Assembly (NCBI GenBank): GCA_026014875.1
Contig: JAOZHO010000037.1
Span: forward strand, 186,001-250,000
DNA length: 64,000 bases
Direction: 5' to 3'
Origin: Candidatus Bathyarchaeota archaeon
GTDB taxonomy: Archaea; Thermoproteota; Bathyarchaeia; TCS64
Part shown: piece by piece, positions 14,172-47,560 of the stretch
Numbering within the stretch: the first letter of the stretch is position 1
Layout: every line of letters starts with the position of its first letter
Translations under genes and position numbers: made by a program
The notes under the pieces: generated by a model
Databases searched by the model: none
What the model saw: only the letters and a program-made list of their open reading frames with translations
What the model was told of the DNA's origin: nothing

Positions 14172-15824
14172 TCACAGCTCGATGACAGACCTCAGTCGGG
14201 TGGAGACGAAATATAGGGAGGCCAGTGATATCAGCCAGGCTCCGGCTATCCAAAGGGGGTTCAGTGTACTGTGGGGCACCAGACCGGAGCCCTCCTCGAA
14301 GGGCGCCGATGTGATGGGGTTGAGCAAGTTCTCCGCGGGGGCGTAGTCATCAGTCAAAACGAGTTCGCTGTCGGAGGCCAGCTCGAGGTCGAACAGTGTA
14401 TCTGCGTATCTCTCGAGGGGGACTCCCTCCACGGGGTGGGCCTCGGCCGCCTCCATCAGATCCACTTCGTTGAATCTGGTGGGGCTCTTGGTGGCGACGA
14501 GAATGATGTTCTGGAGAAGGCTGAGCTGCCCGCTCCTAGTGGGGAAGAGGTAGACCTGGGAGAGGACGCCGGCGACGGTGTTGACCTCAGCCTTGAGCAG
14601 GTCCGAGGTGTCCCCGATCAGTGAGGATATGAGGTTGGAGACCACGACGCCGCCCGGGGCCAGGTGCTCGTCGAGGGACTCGAAGAACTCCCGGGTCATC
14701 AGATGGAAGGGGACATATGTCTTCGAGTAGGCGTCGAGAACCACGATGTCATAGGTCCCCGCATCCCTGAGGAATGAGCGCCCGTCCATCATGAAGATTC
14801 TCATGCGGGGGTCATCGGTGACGCCGAAATAATCCTTGGCCACGGCCACAACGTCCGGGTCGATCTCCACCACGTCGACGGTCGCGTTGGGGTAGTGCTC
14901 CAGGAACTGCTTGGGGCCTGAGAAGCCGCCGCCCCCGAGGAATAGGACCCTCTCGGCCTCGGGGTTGAACAGGAAGGCCACGTTGAAATAGTCGGTGTAC
15001 CGGAAGACCGCCCTGTTGGAGCCGTTGAGGTACATGGCGCTGTGGGGCATGTTGTTCAGGTACATGGTCCTGATCCCCTTGGCCTCGCTGTCGATGACCG
15101 TCAGTGTGCTGTAGGGGGTGTCCTTCCGGATCACTGTGTTCCCCGAGATACCCAGGAAGGGCCCCCCGCCCGCAAAGAGGGAGGGCATCAATAAGACCAG
15201 TACCAGCGTGAAGATGAGGCCCTTCTCCACCCAGGTCATCCCGACGACGGCCACTGCAATGAGGACCACCCCCAGGGAGAAGACGATCTGCCGGACCCCG
15301 AAGCTGGGGATGAGGACGAAGACGGTGAAGAAGGTCCCGAAGATGCTCCCCGCCGTGGAGATGGAGTAGAGGCTCCCCGAGATGCCCCCCAGGTTGAAGA
15401 TGCTCTCCGCGGACATTCTCACCGAGTACGGGGAGATCATCCCCAGGAGAGTGGTGGGGACCGCGAGGAGAAGGAGGGAGGCGAAGATGGGCCCGTACTT
15501 ATCCCCCACCCCTGAGAGGTAGACCACCTCGAGGATGAGTGGAGAGGAGAGGGGGATGAGCATGATCAGCACCCCCGCCGAAACCAGGATCATGCTGAAG
15601 ACCCCGTAGCTGGGGCGCCGGTCCGCCATCCTCCCCCCCACGTAGTACCCCAGGGACAGGGCGGCCATGACCACCCCGATGAGGGCCCCCCAGACGAAGA
15701 TGCTGTCCCCGAAGACGGGGGCGAGGATCCTGCTCCCAACCAACTCCAGGGCCATGACTACGGCACCCGAGACGAAGACGTTGAACCTGATGCCCCAGAT
15801 CGAGCCCCGACCGACCCCCATCAA
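14172..15824 (-). CDS. Membrane protein fused to spermidine synthase-like methyltransferase domain
   Basis: N-terminal multi-TM; VLFLGGGGFSGPKQFLEHYPNATVDVVEIDPDVVAVAKDYFGV...DIVVLDAYSK. Confidence 0.9.
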   Translation of the reverse strand: MMGVGRGSIWGIRFNVFVSGAVVMALELVGSRILAPVFGDSIFVWGALIGVVMAALSLGYYVGGRMADRRPSYGVFSMILVSAGVLIMLIPLSSPLILEVVYLSGVGDKYGPIFASLLLLAVPTTLLGMISPYSVRMSAESIFNLGGISGSLYSISTAGSIFGTFFTVFVLIPSFGVRQIVFSLGVVLIAVAVVGMTWVEKGLIFTLVLVLLMPSLFAGGGPFLGISGNTVIRKDTPYSTLTVIDSEAKGIRTMYLNNMPHSAMYLNGSNRAVFRYTDYFNVAFLFNPEAERVLFLGGGGFSGPKQFLEHYPNATVDVVEIDPDVVAVAKDYFGVTDDPRMRIFMMDGRSFLRDAGTYDIVVLDAYSKTYVPFHLMTREFFESLDEHLAPGGVVVSNLISSLIGDTSDLLKAEVNTVAGVLSQVYLFPTRSGQLSLLQNIILVATKSPTRFNEVDLMEAAEAHPVEGVPLERYADTLFDLELASDSELVLTDDYAPAENLLNPITSAPFEEGSGLVPHSTLNPLWIAGAWLISLASLYFVSTRLRSVIEL

Positions 15825-15930: not shown

Positions 15931-17520
15931 TCAGAAATCCGCCTTCGCCTTGTACCTGAACTGAGCCTCGTAGAGCTCAAGGACCCTGTCGAGGGGGTCC
16001 GCATCCCCGGCGGCCTTGTCCTCCCTGATCCGGGTGACCCTCGCAAACCGGAGGGCGAACCCCGACGCGTAGTGGGGGCTCCTCTGGATCTCGTTGAAGG
16101 TGACCTCGACGACGAGCTCCGGGCGGACGTGGACGGTCCCCGGGGTCTCCCGGACCTTGAGGTCCTGAAGCCTCTCGGTCATCCAGAGGAACTCCTCGTC
16201 GGTGAGCCCCTTGAAGGTCTTCCCGATCACCCTGAACCCGCCGCCGTCCCTCGCCGCGAGATGGTAGTTGCTCAACCACCCCGTCCTCCGGCCGTAGCCC
16301 CAGTCCGCCGCCGCCACCACGAGGTCCAGGGTCTCCACGGGCTTGAGCTTGAACCAGCGCTTCCCCCGTTTCCCCGGGGAGTAGACGCTGTCCAGCCTCT
16401 TCGCCATGAGCCCCTCGTGGCCCGCCTCCACCGCCTTCCGGAGGAAATCCTCGACGAGTTCGATATCACCGGTGATGACTTGCTCCACTAGGAGTTCGGG
16501 GGGGCAGATCTTCTCCAGCAGCTCCCGCCGTTTGGTGTAAGGCTCGTCGATGAGCAGGGCACCATCCAGATACAGGACGTCGAAGAGGTGAAGACTCAAG
16601 GGGATCTTCTCCACCATCGCCTCGACGTCGTGGACCCTCCTGAACCGCCTCATCAAGTCTTGGAAAGGCAGGGGCTTCCCCCCCTCCCCGACGGCGACGA
16701 CCTCCCCCTCCAGCACCGCGTTCTCTGACACAACACTCTCATGGACGAGGGCGACGATGTCCGGGAGGCTCTCGGTGACGTCGGAGAGGCGCCTGCTGAA
16801 GACCCGTACCTCGGCGCCCCGCCGGTGTATCTGGATCCGGGCCCCGTCGAGCTTGAACTCGAAGGCCGACTCGCCGCCGTGGGCCTCGAGGACCTCGGCG
16901 ACGTCGTAGGACATGGAGGCGAGCATGGGTTTCAACGGGGTGAAGAGGCTCATCTCGACCCCCTTGAGCCCCGTCTCCCCGGACTTTAGGGCGATCTCCG
17001 CGACCCTCCCCAGGTTCCCGGTCATCATGAGGGCCCTCCTAACCAGGGAGGACTCGACCCCGGCGGCCTCGGCGATGCCCCCCAGCATCACTCCCTCGTT
17101 GACCCCTATGCGCATCTCCCCGAAGATGATCCTGACCAGCACCTCTGCCTCCCCGGGGTCGGCCTCGTTGAGGAGCCCCTGGAGGAGCCCCGTCTTGACC
17201 CGCCTCGACCCTGGGCCCCCCGCCTCAGCGATCCGCTCTAATGTCTCGTACACCCTCATGACGGTGAGGGGCTCGGAGAACAGGGTGGTCTGCCTGCTTC
17301 CCTCGAGGGCCCCCTTCACGGTCCTCCCTCCCACCTCGAGAGCCCGGGAGTCGAACTCGGGGAAAACGGAGCCTACAACTAAGAGAACGGAGGGACCTAC
17401 TTCCTCTGGCTCCAGTCCCCTCAGGAACTCGGCTAGGAGCCGGGTCTTCTCCTTGCGCTTCGGGGTCGCCTCTAGGGCCCTGCACAGCGCTGCCAACTCG
17501 GAGAAGGGCGTGGGTGTCAT
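15931..17520 (-). CDS. lig: ATP-dependent DNA ligase
   Basis: Nucleotidyltransferase motif EFKLDGARIQIHRRG, VLEGEVVAV, EGLMAKRLDSVYSPGKRGKRWFKLKP. Confidence 0.95.
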   Translation of the reverse strand: MTPTPFSELAALCRALEATPKRKEKTRLLAEFLRGLEPEEVGPSVLLVVGSVFPEFDSRALEVGGRTVKGALEGSRQTTLFSEPLTVMRVYETLERIAEAGGPGSRRVKTGLLQGLLNEADPGEAEVLVRIIFGEMRIGVNEGVMLGGIAEAAGVESSLVRRALMMTGNLGRVAEIALKSGETGLKGVEMSLFTPLKPMLASMSYDVAEVLEAHGGESAFEFKLDGARIQIHRRGAEVRVFSRRLSDVTESLPDIVALVHESVVSENAVLEGEVVAVGEGGKPLPFQDLMRRFRRVHDVEAMVEKIPLSLHLFDVLYLDGALLIDEPYTKRRELLEKICPPELLVEQVITGDIELVEDFLRKAVEAGHEGLMAKRLDSVYSPGKRGKRWFKLKPVETLDLVVAAADWGYGRRTGWLSNYHLAARDGGGFRVIGKTFKGLTDEEFLWMTERLQDLKVRETPGTVHVRPELVVEVTFNEIQRSPHYASGFALRFARVTRIREDKAAGDADPLDRVLELYEAQFRYKAKADF

Positions 17521-18549
17521 CTAGGGCCTCCCTACCATCCAGTCGCTGAGGCTCCTCTGCTTTTTGGAGCGCTCGATCCTCTCGACCACCGACTCCACCC
17601 GCTCCCTTGAGAAGCCTCGTTCGTCACAAAGGAAGCCGATAAGCCCTTCCCCGTCGAGCTCCCCGGGGGCGACGGTGTAATCGGCCGTGACCTCGGGCTC
17701 CAGGAAGAGCCGCCGAATCTCGGGGTACTCCGAGGGGAGCCGGGAGGCCACTTTCTCGGGCATATCCTCGAGGCGCCCATGCGTCCTCACCAACTTGAGG
17801 GCGGTTTTGGGCCCGACGCCCTTGATCCCGTCGTTGAAGTCGGTGCCCATGAGGATCCCGAGGTCCACCAGCTGCTCCCGGGTGATCCCGTGGTGCCCCA
17901 GAAAGGCCTCGAGGTCGATCAACTCGGGCTCCAGCCTCCTGGCCCTGCCCTTGCTGGGGAGCCACTCCTGGCCCTGGATGGTGAGGTACCTGACGAGCCT
18001 CGGGGTCCCTAGGAGGAGGGAGTCGTAGTCCCGGCTGCTCGAGGCCCAGACGTCCCCGCGCCGTGCCATGTGGGCGGCCTGGGCTTCCCCTTCGGAGGGG
18101 GCCTGGACCCAGGGGACCCCCAGGAGGTCGAGGAGTCTCTTGGAGTCCTCCACCATCTCCCGGGTGAGGCGCCCGGTCTGCACCGCCTTGGAGTGGGCCT
18201 TCGCGAGGTCCCCCGCCTCTATCGCCTCGGCGTACTCCTCCTCGGCCCGTCTCCTCAGCGCCCTCCGCCTGTCCACCTCGCCCTTTTTCAGCTGGGGCGG
18301 CTTTCCGTCGAAGACGAAGATGAGACCCATCCTGTGGTCTGCGATGAGGCGGGTGGTCCTGAAGACGAGGCCCACGAGGTGGGAGGTGACCCGGCCCCGG
18401 GGGTCGCTGAGGGGGGTGCCGTCCCGGGTCCTGATGAGGGCGAGGAACTGGTGGAGGACATTGAATGCGTCCACCGCCATGGATTTCCCGCTCAGGGCCT
18501 CTAGGCTGGTGACCCGCTTCACGATGATGGGGGTGAGGTTGACTCCCAA
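17521..18549 (-). CDS. fen: Flap endonuclease FEN-1
   Basis: MAVDAFNVLHQFL, FVFDGKPPQLKKGEVDRRRALR, VQAPSEGEAQAAHMARRGDVWASSSRDYDSLL, LGILMGTDFNDGIKGVGPKTALKL. Confidence 0.96.
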   Translation of the reverse strand: MGVNLTPIIVKRVTSLEALSGKSMAVDAFNVLHQFLALIRTRDGTPLSDPRGRVTSHLVGLVFRTTRLIADHRMGLIFVFDGKPPQLKKGEVDRRRALRRRAEEEYAEAIEAGDLAKAHSKAVQTGRLTREMVEDSKRLLDLLGVPWVQAPSEGEAQAAHMARRGDVWASSSRDYDSLLLGTPRLVRYLTIQGQEWLPSKGRARRLEPELIDLEAFLGHHGITREQLVDLGILMGTDFNDGIKGVGPKTALKLVRTHGRLEDMPEKVASRLPSEYPEIRRLFLEPEVTADYTVAPGELDGEGLIGFLCDERGFSRERVESVVERIERSKKQRSLSDWMVGRP

Positions 18550-18622
18550 CTGGACCGATCACGGTTCTCTCGGTACAGAATAAATCGATTTGCATCCAGC
18601 GAGCGCGAAAAAAAGGGGGGGG

Positions 18623-19918
18623 TTACTGTATCTCCACGGCCTGGAACCGGGCCACCCTGTGGTTCCCGTGGCCGAAGGACATGTTGTTCACGATGGTCCT
18701 GTCCCAGGCGGCGAGGCGGATGATGTAGCAGCAAGGGATGAGCTTGGGCTCCTTCCATGGCTCCCAGTCGATGTATCCCGTTTCCCCCTTCACAGCGGGG
18801 TTGCCGCCGTAGGTTTTGCTGTAGATGGGTATCGTGAGGCTGTTAGCGCCCATCGCGACGATGTCGAAGTAGGCAAAGTTCTCGTCGTGGACCTCGTAGG
18901 TGATCCTCAGCTTCCCCTGCTCTTTTGTGATGCCCTCGCAGAATATCTCTTCGAGGTCCCCGTCGGGCTGAAGTATCATCAGGTTCTGGAGGTCGATCGT
19001 GGGGCGGGTGTTGTCAATCATCACCGTGACGGCATCGCTAAAAAAATCGGAGCCCCCGGAGCGGACGGTGAGTCGTAGGTGGTGGGTTCCCTCCATCCCG
19101 GCAGTGTTCCAATGGGTCAGGAACTGGGGATCGCACATCTCGGACACCGTGTACCACCCGTTTGCGTCGGGGCTCATGGTGCCCAGGTTGAGGCAGGGCT
19201 CCTTGTTCTTGATGTTCGCCGAGATAGGGTTCCAGGAGCTGAGGTCCGTGGAGTGCTCCACCCTGTACTTTTCGGGGCTTGAGACGCGTAATCGCCCGTT
19301 TATGATGACCCTGCCGCCGAAAGGGTGGTGCCCCCTGCCCATGGAGTAGTCGTCCGGGGGTGTCGATGTGCCGTCGTAGCTGGGGCCGTCGGCGTATCCC
19401 AGGGTGTCGATCTGTTCGACGGGGATCCGGCCCACCTTGGTGATCTCGGGCATGTCGGGGCACAGTTCACGGCAGATGAGCCTGCACCGGTAGAAGGAGA
19501 ACCAGCGGCAGAGCTGCCTGCAGAAGGGCTTGAGCTTGTACTCCTCCACGAGGCTCCGCCACCTTTCGATGTCCTGGCGGTCGTAGGCTCCGATGAACTC
19601 CCTGAAGACTTTGGGGTCCTCGGTGATCCTGAGGGTGACCTGGGCGAACTCCATCATCTCTTCGATGGTGTCCTTAACTGCGATGTCTTCGGGGCAGAAG
19701 CGCCTGCAGATGAAAACGGAGACTTTGGTGCAGTACCAGCGGCACACCCAGCGGCAGATGGGGATCAGCTTCAGTCTGGCGAGGACGGCCTGGTAGGTCT
19801 TGGCGTCCCGCTCCTCAACCGCCTGGGCGACGGCTTTGAAGTCCTCGGGGTTCTCTAGGAGCACCTCGATGGCGTGCCTGAACTCCCGTAGCTTATCGAT
19901 GTCTAACTTCATTTTCAT
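18623..19918 (-). CDS. Uncharacterised protein with duplicated Cys-rich helical module
   Basis: ICRWVCRWYCTKVSVFICRRFCPED and FCRQLCRWFSFYRCRLICRELCPDM, then beta-rich C-terminal part. Confidence 0.8.
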   Translation of the reverse strand: MKMKLDIDKLREFRHAIEVLLENPEDFKAVAQAVEERDAKTYQAVLARLKLIPICRWVCRWYCTKVSVFICRRFCPEDIAVKDTIEEMMEFAQVTLRITEDPKVFREFIGAYDRQDIERWRSLVEEYKLKPFCRQLCRWFSFYRCRLICRELCPDMPEITKVGRIPVEQIDTLGYADGPSYDGTSTPPDDYSMGRGHHPFGGRVIINGRLRVSSPEKYRVEHSTDLSSWNPISANIKNKEPCLNLGTMSPDANGWYTVSEMCDPQFLTHWNTAGMEGTHHLRLTVRSGGSDFFSDAVTVMIDNTRPTIDLQNLMILQPDGDLEEIFCEGITKEQGKLRITYEVHDENFAYFDIVAMGANSLTIPIYSKTYGGNPAVKGETGYIDWEPWKEPKLIPCCYIIRLAAWDRTIVNNMSFGHGNHRVARFQAVEIQ

Positions 19919-20050: not shown

Positions 20051-21256
20051 CTAAGCGGGGATGCCCCCGTTCATGAAGATATAGTAGGCCATCGCTGAAA
20101 CATAGAGGGCGACAGCCGAGGGCATCAGGTATCGGTAGACCTTGCGCAGCTCCGACTTGTAGTAGCTATTGGTGAGGACCAGGCAGAGGTGCATCGGGGA
20201 GGCGAGGTAACCCGCGATGAGCCCCACGTAGATGATGCCCACGACGTAGACCCCGTAGTCCCCGAGGAGGGGCAGCAGGAGCGGGAGAATCATGCCCAGC
20301 CCCATTGTCGGAGTCCCGGAGATCGACCCCGCGAGCAGGGGGACCACCACCAATATCGCAAACAGGGGAACCCCTAGACCCGTCGCCGCATCGAAGAGGG
20401 CGACCACCGAGCTCGACGAGGCCACCACGAACCTGAAGAAGAACATGGAGACCGCCGCGGCGGCGAGGTCCCACTTTACACCTGCTTTGGTGATCTCAAC
20501 GGCTTCCCTCGACTGAACGCCTTTCAGGAGGAAGACCAGGGCGACGGCGGGCACCAGGGCGAGGCAAACGGGGACACCCACAAGGGTCAGTATAATAGCC
20601 GTGGCGATGGGGGTGAGGCCTCGGGCAACGCTCCCCAATCCACCCCCGCTCCCCCTTCCCACCCCCCCGTCCCTGATGAAAGTCCCCCCGACTATGAAGC
20701 CTATCGCGAGGACCACGGCGAGGAGGGGGAGCTGGGCCCTGAGGTACTCGGTGAGAGTAAAGCCCGCCAGGCTAGCCGCTAAGATAAGGGCAGGGGAGAG
20801 GGGGGAGGCCCAGTACCAGAGGTGGCGGAACCAGACGTTGATGTAGGTCTTCTGCTCGGGGCTGAGGCCCAGCCTGTCCGCCTCGGGCTCGTTGAAAGGC
20901 GCCGACATCAAGGCTCCCCCCGGCACCGTGAAGAGCCCAAACATCGCCGGGATGGCCGCCAGTAACACCCGGGCAGGGAGTATCCCCCTGAGCCCCTCAA
21001 TGAGCTCCGTCATCATGCCCGTCTCCTTGAGACTGTACCCCAGCACCGAGATCAGCACCACGGCCACGGTGAGGTTGATGGTGTCAAAGTCGGTCAGAGT
21101 CTTCTGGCTCGCCTCGACGAGGACCCCGACGGGGTCAGAGGAGGTCAGGGCGATGATGAGGGCCCCCGTCAGGATGGACAGAGAGAAATCTACGTTCCTG
21201 AGGCGGAGGGTGACGATCACCGCGAACGCGGCGAGGACGCCGAGGATATCTAACAT
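20051..21256 (-). CDS. DUF401-like polytopic membrane protein (permease-like)
   Basis: MLDILGVLAAFAVIVTLRLRNVDFSLSILTGALIIALTS; IPAMFGLFTVPGGALMSAPF; many TM segments. Confidence 0.75.
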   Translation of the reverse strand: MLDILGVLAAFAVIVTLRLRNVDFSLSILTGALIIALTSSDPVGVLVEASQKTLTDFDTINLTVAVVLISVLGYSLKETGMMTELIEGLRGILPARVLLAAIPAMFGLFTVPGGALMSAPFNEPEADRLGLSPEQKTYINVWFRHLWYWASPLSPALILAASLAGFTLTEYLRAQLPLLAVVLAIGFIVGGTFIRDGGVGRGSGGGLGSVARGLTPIATAIILTLVGVPVCLALVPAVALVFLLKGVQSREAVEITKAGVKWDLAAAAVSMFFFRFVVASSSSVVALFDAATGLGVPLFAILVVVPLLAGSISGTPTMGLGMILPLLLPLLGDYGVYVVGIIYVGLIAGYLASPMHLCLVLTNSYYKSELRKVYRYLMPSAVALYVSAMAYYIFMNGGIPA

Positions 21257-21343: not shown

Positions 21344-22570
21344 TCACTCGTTCTCCTGCGAGTTATTGGAGTGCCCTATCTTCAAGCCACCGTTGCTTTT
21401 GCCGTTACCCTTCCCCTTGTTGCCCTTGTCGGGTTTAGCGTTGGAGCCCCTGCCCTTCGGGTCCTCGCCTGTTTCCGGCTCTGGGTCGCTCGGGGTGGGA
21501 TCGACGCCCTCAGGTCCTCCCTTTTCCTCGTGGTGTGAAATTCTTGCCCAAACCTTGTAGGCTTTCTTCATGTACTTGGCGGTGTCCGTGTCGCCTTCTC
21601 CCAATATCTCGAAGATATCGTCGGAGCACTCCTGGAGACCTTCGAATCCGCTCAAGACGGCGCTCAGGTCGCCGCCCTCCAGCAGGTCTTTGAGTTCCCG
21701 GTTCTTCAGGTGGGCGTCCTCTAGCGCCTTCAGGAGGGCGTCAAAGTCCTCCGGCTCAAAGGAGAGGGGATCGATGAGGGAAAGGATCTCTTCCTCCAAG
21801 CGCTCTAGGCGCCACTCCGAGTTCGCGAGGAAACCAGCGGTCTTCATGGACATCAAGTCCTCGTTCAGGGTCTGCATCAATGTCATGGCGCCATCGAGGA
21901 CCGCGAACGCCGACTCGAGATCCTCCTCGGCTCCCTCGGCATCGCCCTGCGCCAGGAGTTCCTCGGCTTGGACGAGGAGGGCTTCGGCCATGTTCAAGAG
22001 ACCATCAACCTGTGACACATCGACTCCGGCCTCGGCCAGATCTCGAGCCGTATCGTTAACGTCGTTGAGATACGCGTACCCCCTATTCAGGGAGTCCCAG
22101 AGCTCCTGAGCATCCGAGGAATTTTCCTCCAGAATGCTTTCTAGAACCCCGTAGTTAGAGTCCAAGGCCATCTGGAGAACCTCCCCGTAGAGTTGGAGCG
22201 CCTCGGTGGCCTTCTCAGAGACCTCCGGGTACATCCCACTTTCCATGAGGAAGAGGGCCTCCGCCGCTGCTTCCTCGGCCAGGGAGAAGGTCACATATGC
22301 CGCGTTGGGTATCACTGCGCCGTCGAGGGCGAGTTGTTCGAGGATCGCCTCGACTTGGGAGCGGCTCGCATTGAGGAGGGAGAGGAGCTCCTCGGCGAGC
22401 TCGATTCCAGGGTCATCCACTGTATCGGCGAAGGCCGCGGGGCTGTATGAAAACGAAACGAACAGGATTAAAACTAGGATTGAAAAGTAAAATCTCGCAT
22501 CGAGGCAGAGATTTTTCCTAATCGTCAGAGAACGCAGCTCCGAGGGAACTGAATCTACCCATGAACTCAC
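21344..22570 (-). CDS. Secreted helical/coiled-coil protein with charged G/K/N-rich tail
   Basis: Signal-like FYFSILVLILFVSFSYSPAAFA; helical Leu/Glu-rich body; tail PKGRGSNAKPDKGNKGKGNGKSNGG. Confidence 0.7.
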   Translation of the reverse strand: MSSWVDSVPSELRSLTIRKNLCLDARFYFSILVLILFVSFSYSPAAFADTVDDPGIELAEELLSLLNASRSQVEAILEQLALDGAVIPNAAYVTFSLAEEAAAEALFLMESGMYPEVSEKATEALQLYGEVLQMALDSNYGVLESILEENSSDAQELWDSLNRGYAYLNDVNDTARDLAEAGVDVSQVDGLLNMAEALLVQAEELLAQGDAEGAEEDLESAFAVLDGAMTLMQTLNEDLMSMKTAGFLANSEWRLERLEEEILSLIDPLSFEPEDFDALLKALEDAHLKNRELKDLLEGGDLSAVLSGFEGLQECSDDIFEILGEGDTDTAKYMKKAYKVWARISHHEEKGGPEGVDPTPSDPEPETGEDPKGRGSNAKPDKGNKGKGNGKSNGGLKIGHSNNSQENE

Positions 22571-22710
22571 TTATGTCCGTCATCTTCCTGATGGCCGCGT
22601 CCTCGACATCCCGAGGACCCAGCAGGAAGGTCAGGAAGGCATCCATGAAGGACTCTTCAAGGCCGGAGACTTTGTGTGTTCGGGGCACAGAGAGGGTCTT
22701 TATCGCCAAG

Positions 22711-24084
22711 TTACTCACCATCCATAGCTGACCCATGGGTTTGATAATAAGAACCAGCCGGAACCATCTGGAACGATGGTCCCAGGAGCTCCGGGTCCAG
22801 GTACCTGGAGCTTATCCGGACGAAGGTCTCCCGCCCCACCTTCTTGGTCTCGAAGACCCCCTCCCCCTCCAGGCGGCGGATCATCCTCCAGCAGCTCGAC
22901 TTGGGGAGGCCGAGGTGGGACCTGAGCTCGGAGGCGAAGATGCCGCCCCCGTTCTCGGCGACCAGGGTGAGGGCCTCCTTGTCGTCCATCCTCAGGTACG
23001 GGTGTTCATCGAGGATCATGTTGATATCTATGTTTGGAGCCGAGGGCTCTACCGTGACCGCAATGGGTGCGCTCTTCCTCCTCCTCAGGAGATAGGCGGC
23101 GATCAACGGGGCTGTCGCCACGGAACCTAACAGTGGAACGACGGGGATGCCCGTGTACCAGGGGGCGGTGGTGGAGAGCTGGGCGATGATGGACGCCTGC
23201 TCCGCCCGACTTCTCGCCTCCAAGAAGCCCCCCTCATCATACAGGTTATGAGCGGCCTGAAGGGTCTCCCTCGCCTGGTCGAGGGACGAGGTTCTCCCGT
23301 CGTACTCGGCGGTGGATATGGAGGCAGCCGCGGCTTCTAGGGCCGCCATGGCGTCCCGGGAGGCGATCCGGGTCTCATCGATCCAGGCCTTGACATCCCC
23401 CGAGTACTCCTCAGCCAGGACGTAGCGCCCCTCATGAATGGCCTCCTCCGCCTCCTGTAGGAGGGTGTCGGCTTCCTCGACCTCGAAGCCCTCATCACGG
23501 AAATCCTCTACGGCGTCCTCCGCCTCTTTCTGGACCACGAGGGCGTGATCCTTGGTCCCCACGACGCCCTGGAGATAAGATACGGTGACCTCGCCCATGG
23601 GCATGGTGAGGCTCGTCCTGTCGTCGACGGTCCTGATTCGCAGCGGGGAGGGGCTGAGGCTGATGACAGTGGCGTCCCGAGGAAGCTGAACGTTGACGCT
23701 CATCGGGGTCAGGAGGCTGAGGCTCCAGAGGGCCCCCTGCTTGTCCGTGAGATCCGACGTGGAGTAGTCGATTTCCACCATGTCGGATCCAAGGGTGTAG
23801 ACGACCAGATGGCCCAGATGGACACTGTATTCAAGGAGGAGACCTTCTCCGTCCCTCACGATGAGGCTGCCAAAGGTCCACCCGAAAAGGGAGACGTTAA
23901 CCAGGGGGAGTGAAGGGTCCACCGCGACGCTGTAGTCCACGTCGACTACGCCATCGAAATATAATTTGAGGCTCAGAGCCTCGGGGGAGGAGGGTTCCTC
24001 GGCGCCGACGGGGAGAGCACTGGCTAGCATAACTATGATTAGCACTAGGCTGCAGTGAGGCCTTCCTAGCTGGATCTGGTTCAC
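22711..24084 (-). CDS. Membrane-bound one-component regulator: extracellular domain + TM + C-terminal winged HTH
   Basis: Signal peptide; TM IPVVPLLGSVATAPLIAAYLL; wHTH MDDKEALTLVAENGGGIFASELRSHLGLPKSSCWRMIRRLEGEGVFETKKVGRETFVRIS. Confidence 0.8.
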   Translation of the reverse strand: MNQIQLGRPHCSLVLIIVMLASALPVGAEEPSSPEALSLKLYFDGVVDVDYSVAVDPSLPLVNVSLFGWTFGSLIVRDGEGLLLEYSVHLGHLVVYTLGSDMVEIDYSTSDLTDKQGALWSLSLLTPMSVNVQLPRDATVISLSPSPLRIRTVDDRTSLTMPMGEVTVSYLQGVVGTKDHALVVQKEAEDAVEDFRDEGFEVEEADTLLQEAEEAIHEGRYVLAEEYSGDVKAWIDETRIASRDAMAALEAAAASISTAEYDGRTSSLDQARETLQAAHNLYDEGGFLEARSRAEQASIIAQLSTTAPWYTGIPVVPLLGSVATAPLIAAYLLRRRKSAPIAVTVEPSAPNIDINMILDEHPYLRMDDKEALTLVAENGGGIFASELRSHLGLPKSSCWRMIRRLEGEGVFETKKVGRETFVRISSRYLDPELLGPSFQMVPAGSYYQTHGSAMDGE

Positions 24085-24237
24085 CCTCTCCCCCGGGAGT
24101 TTCCGGGTTCGCTAAAGAACATTATGAACAGCTCTTACTGCCCGGAGAAACCGTGCTCTCCCATGGAACAAGGGTAGGGTTTAGAGCCTTTGAGCCTCCC
24201 AAGGGTCGCCGGAGAGGGCTAACTCAAATTATTTCTA

Positions 24238-25467
24238 GTGGATGAGAGGATAGGAGCCGTATCTGAGGTTTCACACGGGGCTGAGGGCGTGCTCGAGAAA
24301 AAATGGAGTTACAGCCACACGGTCCTCACCCTCTGCTGGTTCGGGTGGATCGCGATCTACCTCTGCCGCTCCGTCCTGGCCCCGATCCTCCCCGTGGTCT
24401 CGGGGGAGCTGGGGCTCTCCCACGCCCAGGCCGGGATGCTGGAGACCGCCTATCTCTTGGGCTACATAGTGATCAAGATGCCGGCGGGGGTCCTCGGCAA
24501 TAGGATCGGCATCAAGAGGACCCTCACCTTGGGAATGGTGGGCTACGCGCTCGCAACGGCCCTCAACTTCTTCGCGACGGGCTTCCTCCACCTCTTCGTC
24601 CTCCGGTTCCTGGTGGGCCTCTTCCAGGGGGTCCACCTGCCCCTGGCGAACACCCTCCTCTCCGAGAGGTTTGGGGACCGCCAGGGACGGGCCATCGGGT
24701 TCCACGAGTCGGGGCCCAACGTGGGGAACTCCATCGCCTATCCCCTCACCGTCGCGATCGCCTCCTCCTGGGGCTGGAGATACGCCTTCCTCCTCCTCTC
24801 CCTGCCCGCCTTCGTCCTAGCGGGGGTGGTGACACTGATCCTCAAGGACGAGAGACAGGGCTCCATGGTCGTGAACGAGGAGCCCGCTGGTGGAAACCAA
24901 ACCCTCGGAATGTACTTCCGCCTACTGGCCCCCCTCGCCCTAGCCCACGCCGTCTACAACCTCTGCCTCCGGGCTCTCCTCACCTTCGCCCCTTCCTACC
25001 TCGTGGAGTACAGGGGAATGGGGCTCGCCGCGGCGGGGTTCGTCGCGATGCTGATGCCCGCGGCGGGGTTCTTCGCCAAGGTCTCCAGCGGCTTCATCGC
25101 GGAGAGGGTTGGCGGGAGGAACTCGATCAGCGCCGCTATCCTGCTGAGCGGTGTCTTCATATTCACCCTCACGAGGGTCAGCGGCCAGGGACCTACCTCG
25201 GTGAATTTCGTCGCCCTCGGGCTCGCCCTCTACTCGTTCTCCCCCACCATCTACGCCTCGGTCACATCGGGGCTGCCGACGCATCTGAAATCCATGGGCT
25301 TGGGGGCGGTGACCATGACGGGGAATATCTTCGGGGCCTTCTCGGCCTCGCTGATAGGTTATCTCATCGATACCCTGGGTTACCAGACGGCTCTGACCAT
25401 GATCTCAGGGACGGTCATAGCTGCGACAGCATTGATCTATGCTGTGATGCGGGAGAGTCCCGGATAA
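24238..25467 (+). CDS. MFS transporter
   Basis: ~12 hydrophobic segments; GVLGNRIGIKRTL loop motif; SERFGDRQGRAIGFHESGPNVG. Confidence 0.9.
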   Translation: MDERIGAVSEVSHGAEGVLEKKWSYSHTVLTLCWFGWIAIYLCRSVLAPILPVVSGELGLSHAQAGMLETAYLLGYIVIKMPAGVLGNRIGIKRTLTLGMVGYALATALNFFATGFLHLFVLRFLVGLFQGVHLPLANTLLSERFGDRQGRAIGFHESGPNVGNSIAYPLTVAIASSWGWRYAFLLLSLPAFVLAGVVTLILKDERQGSMVVNEEPAGGNQTLGMYFRLLAPLALAHAVYNLCLRALLTFAPSYLVEYRGMGLAAAGFVAMLMPAAGFFAKVSSGFIAERVGGRNSISAAILLSGVFIFTLTRVSGQGPTSVNFVALGLALYSFSPTIYASVTSGLPTHLKSMGLGAVTMTGNIFGAFSASLIGYLIDTLGYQTALTMISGTVIAATALIYAVMRESPG

Positions 25468-40953: not shown

Positions 40954-43900
40954 TTAGCCCGCTATCTTTTTGCTTATCTGCATTAGAGATACTATCGCTG
41001 CGAGAGCTGCTATCAACGAGGCGCCTATCGCGCCGTAAACCAGGCTCTCTAGTCCTTTTGCAGCGTCGCCCGCACCCTCGGCCGCAGTCGCGGCGTCGGC
41101 AGCGGCGTCAGCTGCTTCTTGAGCTGCATCCAAGGCACTGTTCGATGCGTCCGCGATGTCGCCCATGGAGTCCTCGAGATCGCTAAAGGAGTCCTCCAGA
41201 TCCGCGACCGCGTCACTGGCGGCGTTGCCCGCGTCTGTTGCGGCGGCGATCTCGTCGGATAGGCCGTCGATGTCGTCCGCGAAGTCAGCGGATAGGCTGG
41301 CGATGTCGTCCGCAAAGTCAGCGGATAGGGCGTCCATGTCGTCCGCAAAGTCATCGCTCAGGCCAGCCATATCTTCCGCGAGACCGGATAGATCAGATCT
41401 GACGTCCTCTAGCAGGACGTCAACCTGGGCGGCTGTTGAAGGACCGACCGCGAATGTACCGTTCATCAGTTCATCGTCGGCTGTGTCGTAGAAGAAGTAT
41501 GTCCAGGTGCCTAGGGGCGCGTCGCTTGCGAGATCCATTGGGTTCTCGTTGGCAGTCTGTCTATAGTAGGGAACTGTGTACAGCAAGTCTGGTTGGATCC
41601 ACATATCCGCAACGAGCAGATCGGTAATCCACCATAGAGTATCGTCGGGACTGTAGATCTCGATGTAAGAATTGGGAAGATCGAAGTCGTTGCTGATGTC
41701 GAATTTGACAGTATTACCTCTATCGAAGAGCGCCTTAGTGGGGTTCACTTCGACGCGAGCGGCAACAACGCTGAAAGGCAGCTGGACGAGAAGTCCTTCG
41801 CTTCCAGTTATGTTGATGGTATATTCTCCGATGCTTAGTTCATCGAGGACTTCCCACCAGCCTGTGAAGTTACCGTCATCAGTCTCAACAGGGACACCAG
41901 GATCTCCGTTCATTCGGACATCCATGGGCCAATCATCTGTTGAGTTGTAAATCACCAGTTCTACAAGATCGTCTACATCTGCGAAGTTGTTACCTGAGAA
42001 GGTTATATTGTATTCATTCGGTGCCATAGCTGGATCAGCTGAAGCATAGGATGATTCTGTAACTGTAAAGTGTACTGTTAGCTCATTTTCAACTGAGTCG
42101 ATGACCATTACTTCGTAGGTTCCAGGATCAATATTTGGGATATAGAAGATATCCGAAATAGCTTCTCCTGTTACGCCATCGGAACCAACGCCATCCGTAT
42201 AGTCCTCGTATAGCTCGTCTCCGAATGTCAGATTGTAGAGGCCATTTTCAAAGCCAATTCCGGTAATAGCCATTTCAGTTCCAGCCGCGCCTGAGATTGG
42301 ATTCACGATCAATGCGATCAGACCGACCTTAAAGGCGTCATCTGCGTCGATGAAATACTCGTCAACGGCAGTTACAGTGTATGTAATGAATCCTACAGCA
42401 GGGGCCACGAACGTAGCCTCAAAGTTACCATTTGCATCTGTCTCAGCAGTAACTAAATCTGAAGTTGGGGTAGAGTCCAGTGTTACATAGACCTCGGTTC
42501 CGGCAATCTGTGTAAAGTTGGTTCCTGTTACTGTGATAACTGCGCCAGGAGAACCATAGGTCGGGTCAACCTCGATCTCTGGTTCACCATCAACCTCAAA
42601 GTCAGCCTTTGCAGTCTTCGCTCCATCATCGACTGTGATATCATAGTCATCCATGGCAACGTCAGGTATTACGAACTCGGCTTCAAATTCTCCTTCCGTT
42701 ACTTCAATCTCGTCTACATCACCATCAACCGGAAGCATATCTGTACCATCAAGCTTCACACTCGATAAGAAACCGTCTATGAAACCTCTACCGGTTATGG
42801 TCACGATAAATCCAGTTGGACCCTGATCGATGTCTGTAGTTATGACGGCTCCGATTGTGAAAGAACTCATGTTCCAGAAGTCTCCGCTACCGACACCGGA
42901 CACTGAGTGTCCGGTCTCGGCTAGATCAGGGATGTCAAAGGTGCTCGACCAGGACCCATCGTCACCGCTTGTAACGGTAGCGTCAGGACTGGTTAGATTG
43001 TAGATTATGCCTTCAACTTTTACATCATCGACATAATATGTTCCTACGACGCCCCAGCCTACCTGTGGACCGACAGCTGATAGGACCCATGAGTCAGAAC
43101 CACCCGATGCTGTATCGATGTCTGACACAGCAGTACCCCAATCAGCAGAGGTGCCGCTGAATGATGATCCATCAGCTTTGTTTCCAAACCACCAAACAGT
43201 GCCTGTCGCTATTGATGCAATCTGCCATGCGGTTGTTGGGTTAGTAGTTGTTGGTATGGTTATTTCAACGTGAGCGCGATTGTTGCTACCTGAATCATAG
43301 GGGTTAACGCAATCAGGATGGGCGAAAAGCAGCGCAATTTCAGGAGAAAGTCCAGTAGCTACCGACTTAGTATAGTAAATCGATAGACCAGTCAAGGACT
43401 CATCAAAGGCAACCAATGTCGGTGCATTAGAAGTCCTATTCATGACTAATGCAGCCGCATTGGAACCATCGACTCCGACAAGCTTCACAACGTCTTCAGT
43501 TCCTCCGATGACTGGGTCTGTGGCCCAATCTGCCGTAGAATCTCCATATCGTTCATCGAGTCTAACGGGAGGACTCCCGAAGTATATCGCGATATCGTCA
43601 TCGTCCAGGTATCCAGTGCCGTCCACCGTTAGCTCTTCGTCAACTAAACCTGAGGAAGCGGAGAGATCCACTTCAGGCAGTACGACTACTCGCACATTGG
43701 CTGTGAGGGATGTTTCCACGTCTTTGACCCAGATCCAGTGTTCTCCAGCGAAAGTATCGGGCACATCCAGCGAGACCGTGAAGGTTCCGCCTGCCGCACC
43801 TTGAGTGTTGTTCATGAGTCCTGCCGAAGTGACGAAGTCCCAATAGACGTTGATTGTTGCACCTGAGGTTACACCCCAGCCTTCAACTGTGATAGTATCA

Positions 43901-44037
43901 CCGACTAGGTACCGAGTGCCGGCAGTTGGAGCGGCTGAGTCAAGTGTAAGTGCGCTTGCTGGCATGATGGGTATCATGCTGATGAGGAATGTTGCGATTA
44001 CGATTATTGATATTGCTCTCTTACTTAGTTTATTCAT
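40954..44037 (-). CDS. Large surface (S-layer-like) protein: signal peptide, IPT/TIG-type repeats, hendecad coiled coil, C-terminal TM anchor
   Basis: RAISIIVIATFLISMIPIMPASA; YGSPGAVITVTGTNFTQIAGTEVYVTL repeats; LSDDFADDMDALSADFADDIASLSADFADDIDG; VYGAIGASLIAALAAIVSLMQISKKIAG. Confidence 0.88.
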   Translation of the reverse strand: MNKLSKRAISIIVIATFLISMIPIMPASALTLDSAAPTAGTRYLVGDTITVEGWGVTSGATINVYWDFVTSAGLMNNTQGAAGGTFTVSLDVPDTFAGEHWIWVKDVETSLTANVRVVVLPEVDLSASSGLVDEELTVDGTGYLDDDDIAIYFGSPPVRLDERYGDSTADWATDPVIGGTEDVVKLVGVDGSNAAALVMNRTSNAPTLVAFDESLTGLSIYYTKSVATGLSPEIALLFAHPDCVNPYDSGSNNRAHVEITIPTTTNPTTAWQIASIATGTVWWFGNKADGSSFSGTSADWGTAVSDIDTASGGSDSWVLSAVGPQVGWGVVGTYYVDDVKVEGIIYNLTSPDATVTSGDDGSWSSTFDIPDLAETGHSVSGVGSGDFWNMSSFTIGAVITTDIDQGPTGFIVTITGRGFIDGFLSSVKLDGTDMLPVDGDVDEIEVTEGEFEAEFVIPDVAMDDYDITVDDGAKTAKADFEVDGEPEIEVDPTYGSPGAVITVTGTNFTQIAGTEVYVTLDSTPTSDLVTAETDANGNFEATFVAPAVGFITYTVTAVDEYFIDADDAFKVGLIALIVNPISGAAGTEMAITGIGFENGLYNLTFGDELYEDYTDGVGSDGVTGEAISDIFYIPNIDPGTYEVMVIDSVENELTVHFTVTESSYASADPAMAPNEYNITFSGNNFADVDDLVELVIYNSTDDWPMDVRMNGDPGVPVETDDGNFTGWWEVLDELSIGEYTINITGSEGLLVQLPFSVVAARVEVNPTKALFDRGNTVKFDISNDFDLPNSYIEIYSPDDTLWWITDLLVADMWIQPDLLYTVPYYRQTANENPMDLASDAPLGTWTYFFYDTADDELMNGTFAVGPSTAAQVDVLLEDVRSDLSGLAEDMAGLSDDFADDMDALSADFADDIASLSADFADDIDGLSDEIAAATDAGNAASDAVADLEDSFSDLEDSMGDIADASNSALDAAQEAADAAADAATAAEGAGDAAKGLESLVYGAIGASLIAALAAIVSLMQISKKIAG
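41262..41361. repeat. Tandem ~33-bp repeats encoding an 11-residue (hendecad) unit
   Basis: gcgatgtcgtccgcaaagtcagcggatag-type units repeated ~3 times. Confidence 0.8.
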
Positions 44038-44977: not shown

Positions 44978-47560
44978 TTAGCCCGCTATCTTTTTGCTTA
45001 TCTGCATCAGTGAAACGATTGCCGCAAGGGCCGCTATCAACGAGGCGCCTATCGCACCGTAAACCAGACTCGTCAGCCCTTTTGCAGCGTCGCCCGCACC
45101 CTCAGCCGCAGTCGCGGCGTCGGCAGCGGCGTCAGCTGCTTCTTGAGCTGCATCCAAGGCACTGTTCGATGCGTCCGCAATGTCGCCCATAGAGTCCTCC
45201 AGATCACTCAAGGAGTCATCCAGATCCGCGACCGCGTCACCGGCGGCATTACCCGCGGCTGTCGCAGCGGCGATGTCGTCAGCGAGGTCGCCGACGATCT
45301 CATCCTTCAGGCCGTCGACGTCGGATGCCACGTCCCCGATCTCCGAGGATAAGGCGTCGATGTCGTCCTCCAGGTCTGTTGTTACGCCTGCGATGTCGAC
45401 AGCGAGGTCAGCGATGCTTCCCTCGACGTCGGATAGCCGGGCGTCGACCTGGGCGGCGGTTGTGGGCAGTATCTCTATTGTGCCGTTCTTGATGACGTCG
45501 TCATCGACATCGTAGAGAGTCCAGACCCATGTTCCTGTGTCGCCGTCGCTCGGGATCATCAACGGATTAAGCGAGCCGTCCTGTACCTGGTTGGGTATCC
45601 TGACGACCTGCCATCCACTGATCTCCTCCCACTCAATTCCGGCGAATGTGCTGATGAAGATCTGTTCCTCGCTTGGATCAACGATCTCCAGATACGAGTT
45701 TACCTTTTCGAAAGTCGCCTTGATGGTGAAGGTTATCGTGTCACCGAGACTGTAGGACGCCTTGTTGGGATTGATCTCCACTTCCTCCTCGACTACTGTA
45801 AAGTCGAACTCGGCGTAGAGGTCGTTGGCATCTGTAACGTTCATGGTGTACGTGTTCCCCAGGAGCATTGTATCAGGTACGACCCAGTAGCCTGTGAAGT
45901 TACCGTCGGCACTCGACGTCGACGCGACACCAAAGGTCTCGTTAACGACAATAGCCGTGGTCATTCCCCACGTGGCATTGTATGCGTAGAAAGTCAGAGC
46001 TGTGGCGGCTACCTCAGTGAAGTGCTCACCGTAGATGCTCATGTTGTATCCAACGGCGATATCTGAGGGAGTTCCGGCCAGGCTCGTGGTTGCTGTAACT
46101 GTGAATGTTCTGGATAGTGTGTTCTCATCCTCGTCGACGACGGTCACGGTGTACGTGCCCGGATCAACGGTGGGAACGACGAAGTCATCGGAGATCTGTT
46201 CGGAGGTTACAGCCTGATTGTCTAGAAGCAGATCGTCTTCGAAGGTCATGTTATACAAGCCGTTGGTGAAGCCTATGCCTGTCAAACTGACTTCTGTACC
46301 GGAGGGTCCAGATTCCGGGTTGATGAGCATGGCTATGAGCCCGATCTTGAAGGTGTCTGTCGCATTTACTGTATACTCGTCCACGGCGTCTACATCGTGG
46401 GTCTTGAACTCGGTTGCAGGAGCGGTGATTGTCACGGTGAACGTACCGTCGGCTAGTGTATCAACGGTTTCGGTAGTTGTGTTCAGCGTGATCGTGACCT
46501 CTGTGCCAGCGATCTGAGTGAAGTTCGCACCAGTCACAGTGATTCCTGCGCCTGGAGAGCCGTAAGTGGGATCAACCTCTATGCTTGCTGTACCGTCGAT
46601 AGTGAAGTTGTCCTCAGCCCAGTTGGTTCCATCGGTAACCTGTACACGCCAGTCGCCTACGCCCCACGAGGGAGCGACGATCTCTCCTGTGAATTCGCCG
46701 TCTGCATTTATGTCGGGGTCATCGACCCAGGTTAGATTTCCATCAGATCCATAAGCACCTGCTGGACCGTCCCATGTGACGTTCCCAACGGTCAATGTTT
46801 GATCAGCCTCGAAGCCTCTGCCAACTATCTCGATGACGAAGCCCTCGGGGCCCTCGTCCTCGGTTAGCGTGATAGATGCACCGATAGTGAACGCAGTTGT
46901 GACGTTGAAGCTGTCACCGGCTGCGGCGCTGCTCACGTTGAAGAAGTAGTCATCGTATGTGAGGACCGAAGCTGGAATATCCACCTCGATCTCGAACGAA
47001 CCGTACACGTCCGTTTCCTCGTCGTTATCCACAACGAGGGCTACGCTTGTATCCATATTTCCTGCAGTTATGTTGAAGATCGAGACGTTGAATCCGGCCT
47101 CAGCATCGAAACCATAACCGGTAAGGGTAACGGTGTCTCCGGGCAGGCCGCTCGTAACATCGACCTCCAGCGTAGGATCTACGTTTACGTCTAGGGAGCC
47201 GTTGTTCAGGCCAGTCGCCACGTCAACGACCCAGATGTAGTGGTCACCGACTTCCGTTTCAGGCACATCGATGTTTACTTCGTATGAGCCGTCCGGGTCA
47301 CCCGTCGTGGTGTTCAGCAGCCAGGCGCTCGCGCCTGTGGCATAGTCCCAATAGACCTTAACCTCTGACCCTGATGTGACCTGCCCCGCTGCCCCCGTCA
47401 AGGTGATCGTGTCACCGACTTCATAGGGACCAGCCGGAGCGGGCGTGGGTTGATCGAGAGCGCTGACTGAGACGAATGGCACTATGAATGATAGAGTAAG
47501 TATAGCAATTACGATTATTGATAGCATTCCTTTAGAGTTTCTTTTCATTTTTCTTTTCAC
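44978..47560 (-). CDS. Surface (S-layer-like) protein, paralogue of 40954..44037
   Basis: Same signal/IPT/coiled-coil/TM architecture; C-terminal SNSALDAAQEAADAAADAATAAEGAGDAAKGLTSLVYGAIGASLIAALAAIVSLMQISKKIAG nearly identical. Confidence 0.88.
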   Translation of the reverse strand: MKRKMKRNSKGMLSIIVIAILTLSFIVPFVSVSALDQPTPAPAGPYEVGDTITLTGAAGQVTSGSEVKVYWDYATGASAWLLNTTTGDPDGSYEVNIDVPETEVGDHYIWVVDVATGLNNGSLDVNVDPTLEVDVTSGLPGDTVTLTGYGFDAEAGFNVSIFNITAGNMDTSVALVVDNDEETDVYGSFEIEVDIPASVLTYDDYFFNVSSAAAGDSFNVTTAFTIGASITLTEDEGPEGFVIEIVGRGFEADQTLTVGNVTWDGPAGAYGSDGNLTWVDDPDINADGEFTGEIVAPSWGVGDWRVQVTDGTNWAEDNFTIDGTASIEVDPTYGSPGAGITVTGANFTQIAGTEVTITLNTTTETVDTLADGTFTVTITAPATEFKTHDVDAVDEYTVNATDTFKIGLIAMLINPESGPSGTEVSLTGIGFTNGLYNMTFEDDLLLDNQAVTSEQISDDFVVPTVDPGTYTVTVVDEDENTLSRTFTVTATTSLAGTPSDIAVGYNMSIYGEHFTEVAATALTFYAYNATWGMTTAIVVNETFGVASTSSADGNFTGYWVVPDTMLLGNTYTMNVTDANDLYAEFDFTVVEEEVEINPNKASYSLGDTITFTIKATFEKVNSYLEIVDPSEEQIFISTFAGIEWEEISGWQVVRIPNQVQDGSLNPLMIPSDGDTGTWVWTLYDVDDDVIKNGTIEILPTTAAQVDARLSDVEGSIADLAVDIAGVTTDLEDDIDALSSEIGDVASDVDGLKDEIVGDLADDIAAATAAGNAAGDAVADLDDSLSDLEDSMGDIADASNSALDAAQEAADAAADAATAAEGAGDAAKGLTSLVYGAIGASLIAALAAIVSLMQISKKIAG

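Follow-up and report, generated by a model that had tools for sequence, protein, structure and literature searches.

A twin cysteine-ladder module joined to predicted FnIII/Ig-like domains in an archaeal protein whose gene lies in a block with an extra FEN1 and an ATP-dependent ligase

What does a protein do that carries ten of its 15 cysteines in two N-terminal repeats of a kind which none of the common family collections describes, and are these cysteines kept for metal, for disulfides or for a cluster? The question is raised by a 431-aa protein encoded in the window, the 64,000-nucleotide stretch of Bathyarchaeota DNA analysed here. Read on the plus strand, positions 18623–19918 contain six stops; the true open reading frame lies on the minus strand, from 19918 to 18623, and begins with ATG. 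An in-frame TAA immediately 5′ of this ATG and a GGAGG close upstream make a longer N-terminus impossible, so that no signal peptide can be hidden there, in agreement with the earlier note, to which none was evident. Inspection by eye picked out a possible TATA-like ATTTTAAAC within the 132-bp gap upstream of the gene and, on the coding strand, a run of eight T after the stop. An ortholog from the MAG Candidatus Bathyarchaeota BS750m-G27 is 91% identical and keeps 15 of the 15 cysteines; with an overall dN of 0.046 and dS of 0.232 (dN/dS about 0.2) the gene is under purifying selection.

The N-terminal part consists of two homologous modules, A (residues 7–78; 19685–19900, minus strand) and B (residues 85–156; 19451–19666, minus strand), which align without gaps at 30% identity and 55% positives (BLASTP E = 6e-14). 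Their Smith–Waterman score of 119 lies beyond all 5000 shuffles (mean 25.5, sd 5.1, maximum 58), and the helical part that lacks cysteines also scores above every one of the 5000 shuffles. The two homologous N-terminal units perceived in the earlier note are thus real, while its unit length of some 90 aa gives way to a measured 72 aa with a period of 78 residues. The duplication must be old, since at the DNA level the modules share only 53% identity. A relative in one further genome (G022) is a free-standing protein of 156 aa made solely of two modules, and its match to the first 156 residues of the window protein reaches a z of about 15 against shuffles. The window modules A and B match each other better than either matches the modules of G022; module A is nevertheless closer to the first G022 module than to the second, and B slightly closer to the second, a pairing which suggests that the duplication probably predates the split from the G022 lineage.

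All module cysteines fall on a single four-residue register (CxxxCxxxC and so on). Module A presents C55, C59, C63, C71 and C75 with the vacant position filled by Ser67, and module B presents C133, C137, C145, C149 and C153 with the vacancy at Ser141, so that the cysteine stretch is a tetrad, often C-R-x-hydrophobic, repeated six times. The chance that five cysteines spread over 21 residues fall into one such class modulo four is 0.4% per module. The pattern given previously, CRxxCRW...C...ICRxxCP, is better described by this register. Between the G022 and window modules the common core is CxxxCRWxC, and module A of G022 has lost most of the C-terminal cysteines of the ladder, including the second CX3C. 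Across the genome the short CxxxCRW pattern is matched 20 times, against 29 in a reversed control, and is therefore uninformative by itself; the significance of the arrangement rests on the repeat and the register.

An AlphaFold model of residues 1–156, for which three sequences only were available, is all-helical (pLDDT 86, pTM 0.71) and gives each module four helices, at residues 7–22, 24–35, 39–48 and 52–74 in A and 85–100, 102–113, 117–126 and 130–152 in B. The fourth helices bear the ten module cysteines, Cys75 and Cys153 sitting directly past the helix ends, and each is predicted to be continuous over 23 residues. Confidence in this model is weakest at residues 61–80, and a full-length model from seven sequences (pLDDT 67), with an all-helical N-terminus and a C-terminus of two sandwiches, ends the module A helix at residue 65. 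Structure prediction, which the earlier note had proposed as a check, thus supports a helical module. At 100 degrees per residue the ladder drifts by 40 degrees around the helix with every four-residue step, and the cysteines consequently wind round the helix and cannot all point to one core.

No family match for the modules was returned by searches of Pfam, NCBIfam, PHROGs and PADLOC with the Cys protein, the PDB holds no relative of them by sequence, and Foldseek against the PDB gave nothing at E 0.001, the best match (E 1.1) being a designed helical protein. We found no description of this twin module in the literature. The module had not been recognised when the sequence was first read, and that impression is borne out at the level of both sequence and fold; the search extended to matches with a characterised cysteine-rich family, by which the earlier note would have had its proposal of a new domain judged, and found none. 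Among 257 genomes of the class the modules occur in three, namely the window genome (G000), that of the 91% ortholog (G002) and G022. Module profiles run against 398 genomes of the phylum recovered only the modules themselves convincingly, the weak matches coming from reading frames interrupted by stops or covering helical stretches only. Viral contigs gave no match to the module, the relative or the beta part, tblastn against plasmids gave none above chance, and a further module-like sequence gave none as a query. A 43% identical piece from a Halalkalicoccus plasmid (H26) was rejected as a relative, as it belongs to an unrelated protein of 1137 aa. The twin module looks like a real, conserved and uncharacterised orphan domain.

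The C-terminal region (residues 157–431; 18626–19450, minus strand) is modelled as a low-confidence linker to about residue 200 followed by two tandem beta-sandwiches of the FnIII/Ig-like kind, which gives substance to the beta-rich region that had been noticed after the modules. It is homologous to the C-terminal ~275 aa of archaeal proteins of 715–869 aa from four genomes, G183, G194, G252 and G423 (reciprocal E = 8e-5), and carries the motifs of their ends, PFGG, DNxxP, C-x-Y and W-x-R-x-I. These longer proteins begin with two GEVED-like beta domains, whereas the window protein has the Cys modules in their place; in the G194 protein such a domain matches PF20009 weakly, under its cut-off, and no family profile describes the function of the group. 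Judged by sequence, the window protein belongs with this uncharacterised archaeal family by its C-terminal half alone, and since the same part is joined to different N-terminal heads it looks like a movable docking part. Foldseek relates the C-terminal half to tandem FnIII proteins including RbmA and fibronectin, at low TM-scores and 13–15% identity, and the likeness to Vibrio RbmA and other such proteins is one of common sandwich class only. RbmA is a secreted biofilm protein. Viral Foldseek matches were dismissed as generic FnIII/Ig. A gene for a papain-family (C1A) protease (L010 8274–9209, minus strand) lies near the G252 relative (L010 10070–12217); a papain-like protease association was dropped, as the gene is found near that relative only and none is present in the window genome.

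Our preferred reading, which we hold tentatively, is that the Cys protein is an intracellular thiolate-rich protein that would bind a soft metal along its CxxxC ladders and dock through its FnIII/Ig-like part. Each N-terminal module would fold as four helices, the fourth bearing a cysteine every four residues as predicted, and neighbouring cysteine pairs (i, i+4) would chelate a metal such as Cu(I), with Zn(II) and Cd(II) as possible alternatives. Chelation would take place along the ladder helix and, given the drift of the ladder, sites may also be shared between both ladder helices or between subunits. Such metal use may amount to buffering or sensing, while the two C-terminal sandwiches would provide the protein- or ligand-docking part. 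The fixed start without a signal peptide makes a cytosolic, thiol-keeping setting likely, and an intracellular setting together with the conservation of the cysteines would favour thiols over disulfides. The Bathyarchaeota lineage is generally held to be anaerobic, and the relation to an uncultured Bathyarchaeota MAG fits with such a setting. The free-standing 156-aa relative, which keeps CxxxCRWxC, is a further point in favour. Against this stand the winding of the ladder, the loss of ladder cysteines in G022 and a fold predicted from three sequences, as well as the lack of an adjacent metal-homeostasis gene at the locus and of any match to the metal-family profiles.

The closest precedent is offered by the copper-storage proteins Csp1 and Csp3 (DUF326, PF03860), which are all-helical with cysteines on the helices, Csp3 being cytosolic, and MtCsp3 has eight Cu(I) sites built from CXXXC motifs within a single helix (PMC5171941). 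Since a CXXXC motif lying in a single helix is known to bind Cu(I), the simplest interpretation of the overlapping CxxxCxxxC run is a soft-metal ladder; the window modules are likewise helical, and register and model place such pairs within a helix as in Csp. The differences are substantial, however, for Csp proteins carry 16–19 cysteines over four helices whereas the window protein has five per module, on the last helix only, and is fused to FnIII/Ig-like domains. The PF03860 profile matched neither the Cys protein nor anything else in the genome, while a Bacillus subtilis control matched, and Csp structures are not among the fold matches listed for the modules. Membership in Csp/DUF326 is rejected on the lack of a PF03860 match and on the confinement of the cysteines to one helix per module in the model. 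If the ladder does bind metal, it would represent a soft-metal scaffold with the cysteines concentrated on one helix of each four-helix module, which would differ from Csp, where all helices line one core, and it would come from an archaeal lineage hardly studied biochemically.

It is possible, though we consider it doubtful, that the modules are instead disulfide units, in which the twin CxxxC-x11-CxxxC or both ladder helices would be locked by disulfides in an oxidising place or after non-classical export. The spacing CX3C-x11-CX3C is exact in both modules (55/59...71/75 and 133/137...149/153), as in the small Tims Tim9 and Tim10, a family whose spacing is CX3C-x(11-16)-CX3C. In the mitochondrial small Tims disulfides lock the helical bundle, a hairpin being closed by two of them. 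FnIII/Ig-like domains are moreover usually extracellular, and in the beta part Cys327 and Cys396 are invariant in a four-member alignment with relatives at 25–29% identity, as paired disulfide cysteines would be; a disulfide or a shared site is possible for these two. However, a signal peptide is impossible, the odd count of five cysteines leaves one unpaired within each module, and the 156-aa model presents one continuous helix with no hairpin, although region 61–80 is where that model is weakest and the full-length model ends the module A helix at residue 65. In distinction from small Tims, the modules have an extra cysteine and a predicted continuous helix, and the second CX3C is not kept in module A of G022. 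With Pfam results read as far as E = 10, no Tim10/DDP profile match appeared, and assignment of the window protein to the small Tims is not supported.

A different kind of answer comes from the gene neighbourhood, which the earlier note had not taken up, just as it had not seen in the C-terminal half a separate domain pair that other archaeal proteins share. The Cys gene is the first of a co-directional block on the minus strand (15931–19918), followed after 73 bp by a second FEN1-family flap endonuclease (17521–18549; Pfam XPG_N and XPG_I), whose XPG acidic residues, inspected by eye, seem to be intact and which ends in a PIP-box-like QRSLSDWM, and by an abutting ATP-dependent DNA ligase (15931–17520; Pfam DNA_ligase_A_N, A_M and A_C). 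The block is flanked upstream by a DUF401 membrane protein (20051–21256) and downstream by a membrane protein with a spermidine-synthase-like domain (14172–15824), both on the minus strand. The other FEN1 of the window genome (G000:C39:18979-19968) is 49% identical to the block copy. The latter is present in G002 (89%) and missing from the sister genomes G001 and G003, as is the Cys gene; these each have one FEN1, 47–48% identical to the block copy, which corresponds to the C39 copy by sequence and, for G001, also by its neighbours. In G001, which lacks all three genes at this place, the DUF401 and spermidine-synthase-like genes are neighbours 314 bp apart. The trio resembles its flanks in GC and GC3 and thus bears no compositional sign of a recent foreign origin; a search for insertion scars found no shared 10-mers between the two flanks, and gain in G000/G002 and loss in G001 cannot be told apart. 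Between ligase and spermidine-synthase-like gene, G002 has an extra 274-aa zinc-ribbon gene (L012 4689–5513, minus strand). Beyond DUF401, towards a thioredoxin gene, three genes at 21344–25467, two with signal-like N-termini and one transporter-like, are also absent at the G001 locus, which indicates that the region is variable.

From this context the Cys protein could be an accessory factor of a second FEN1–ligase cassette, gained or lost as a unit, in which the Cys modules would be structural or metal-stabilised docking elements and the beta part would hold a partner or DNA; we regard this as unlikely, while noting that it is compatible with metal binding. In its favour, the three genes follow one another on the same strand in both G000 and G002 and are missing together as described, and among the beta-part relatives the G423 protein has an N-terminal helix-hairpin-helix (Pfam HHH_3), with similar sequence in that of G183. 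The G423 gene (L036 8040–10649, plus strand), which encodes two GEVED-like domains, adjoins a eukaryote-type topoisomerase IB (L036 11043–12647, minus strand). Conversely, the adjacency comes from two closely related genomes and possibly from one event, a gap of 73 bp lies between the Cys gene and FEN1, the neighbours of the G183 and G252 relatives are not DNA genes, and no DNA-binding feature is seen in the Cys protein. If the block works as a unit, it would point to an accessory cassette that processes DNA flaps together with a Cys-rich partner of its own. That the twin ladder is in addition a new metal- or redox-responsive part of such a cassette, through which flap cleavage and ligation in Bathyarchaeia-like archaea would respond to the state of thiols or metal, is improbable on present evidence.

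An Fe-S cluster protein, suggested by the many cysteines and the probably anaerobic lineage, is very improbable. The earlier note had thought of a metal/Fe-S or disulfide domain, and it is the Fe-S part that is disfavoured, as modules A and B contain no CxxC or CxxCxxC and no ferredoxin-type spacing; ferredoxin-type matches in Pfam and NCBIfam are also absent, and the model puts the module cysteines on a straight helix. A modified-peptide (RiPP) precursor of repeated leader–core units, which the succession of a helical leader-like and a Cys-rich stretch in each unit might recall, is hardly credible with a folded 275-aa C-terminal part following, no adjoining modifying enzyme and no leader profile matched in Pfam or NCBIfam. 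Elsewhere in the window, two minus-strand genes at 40954–44037 and 44978–47560 encode proteins of 1027 and 860 aa with similar starts and signal-like N-termini, which are probably surface proteins.
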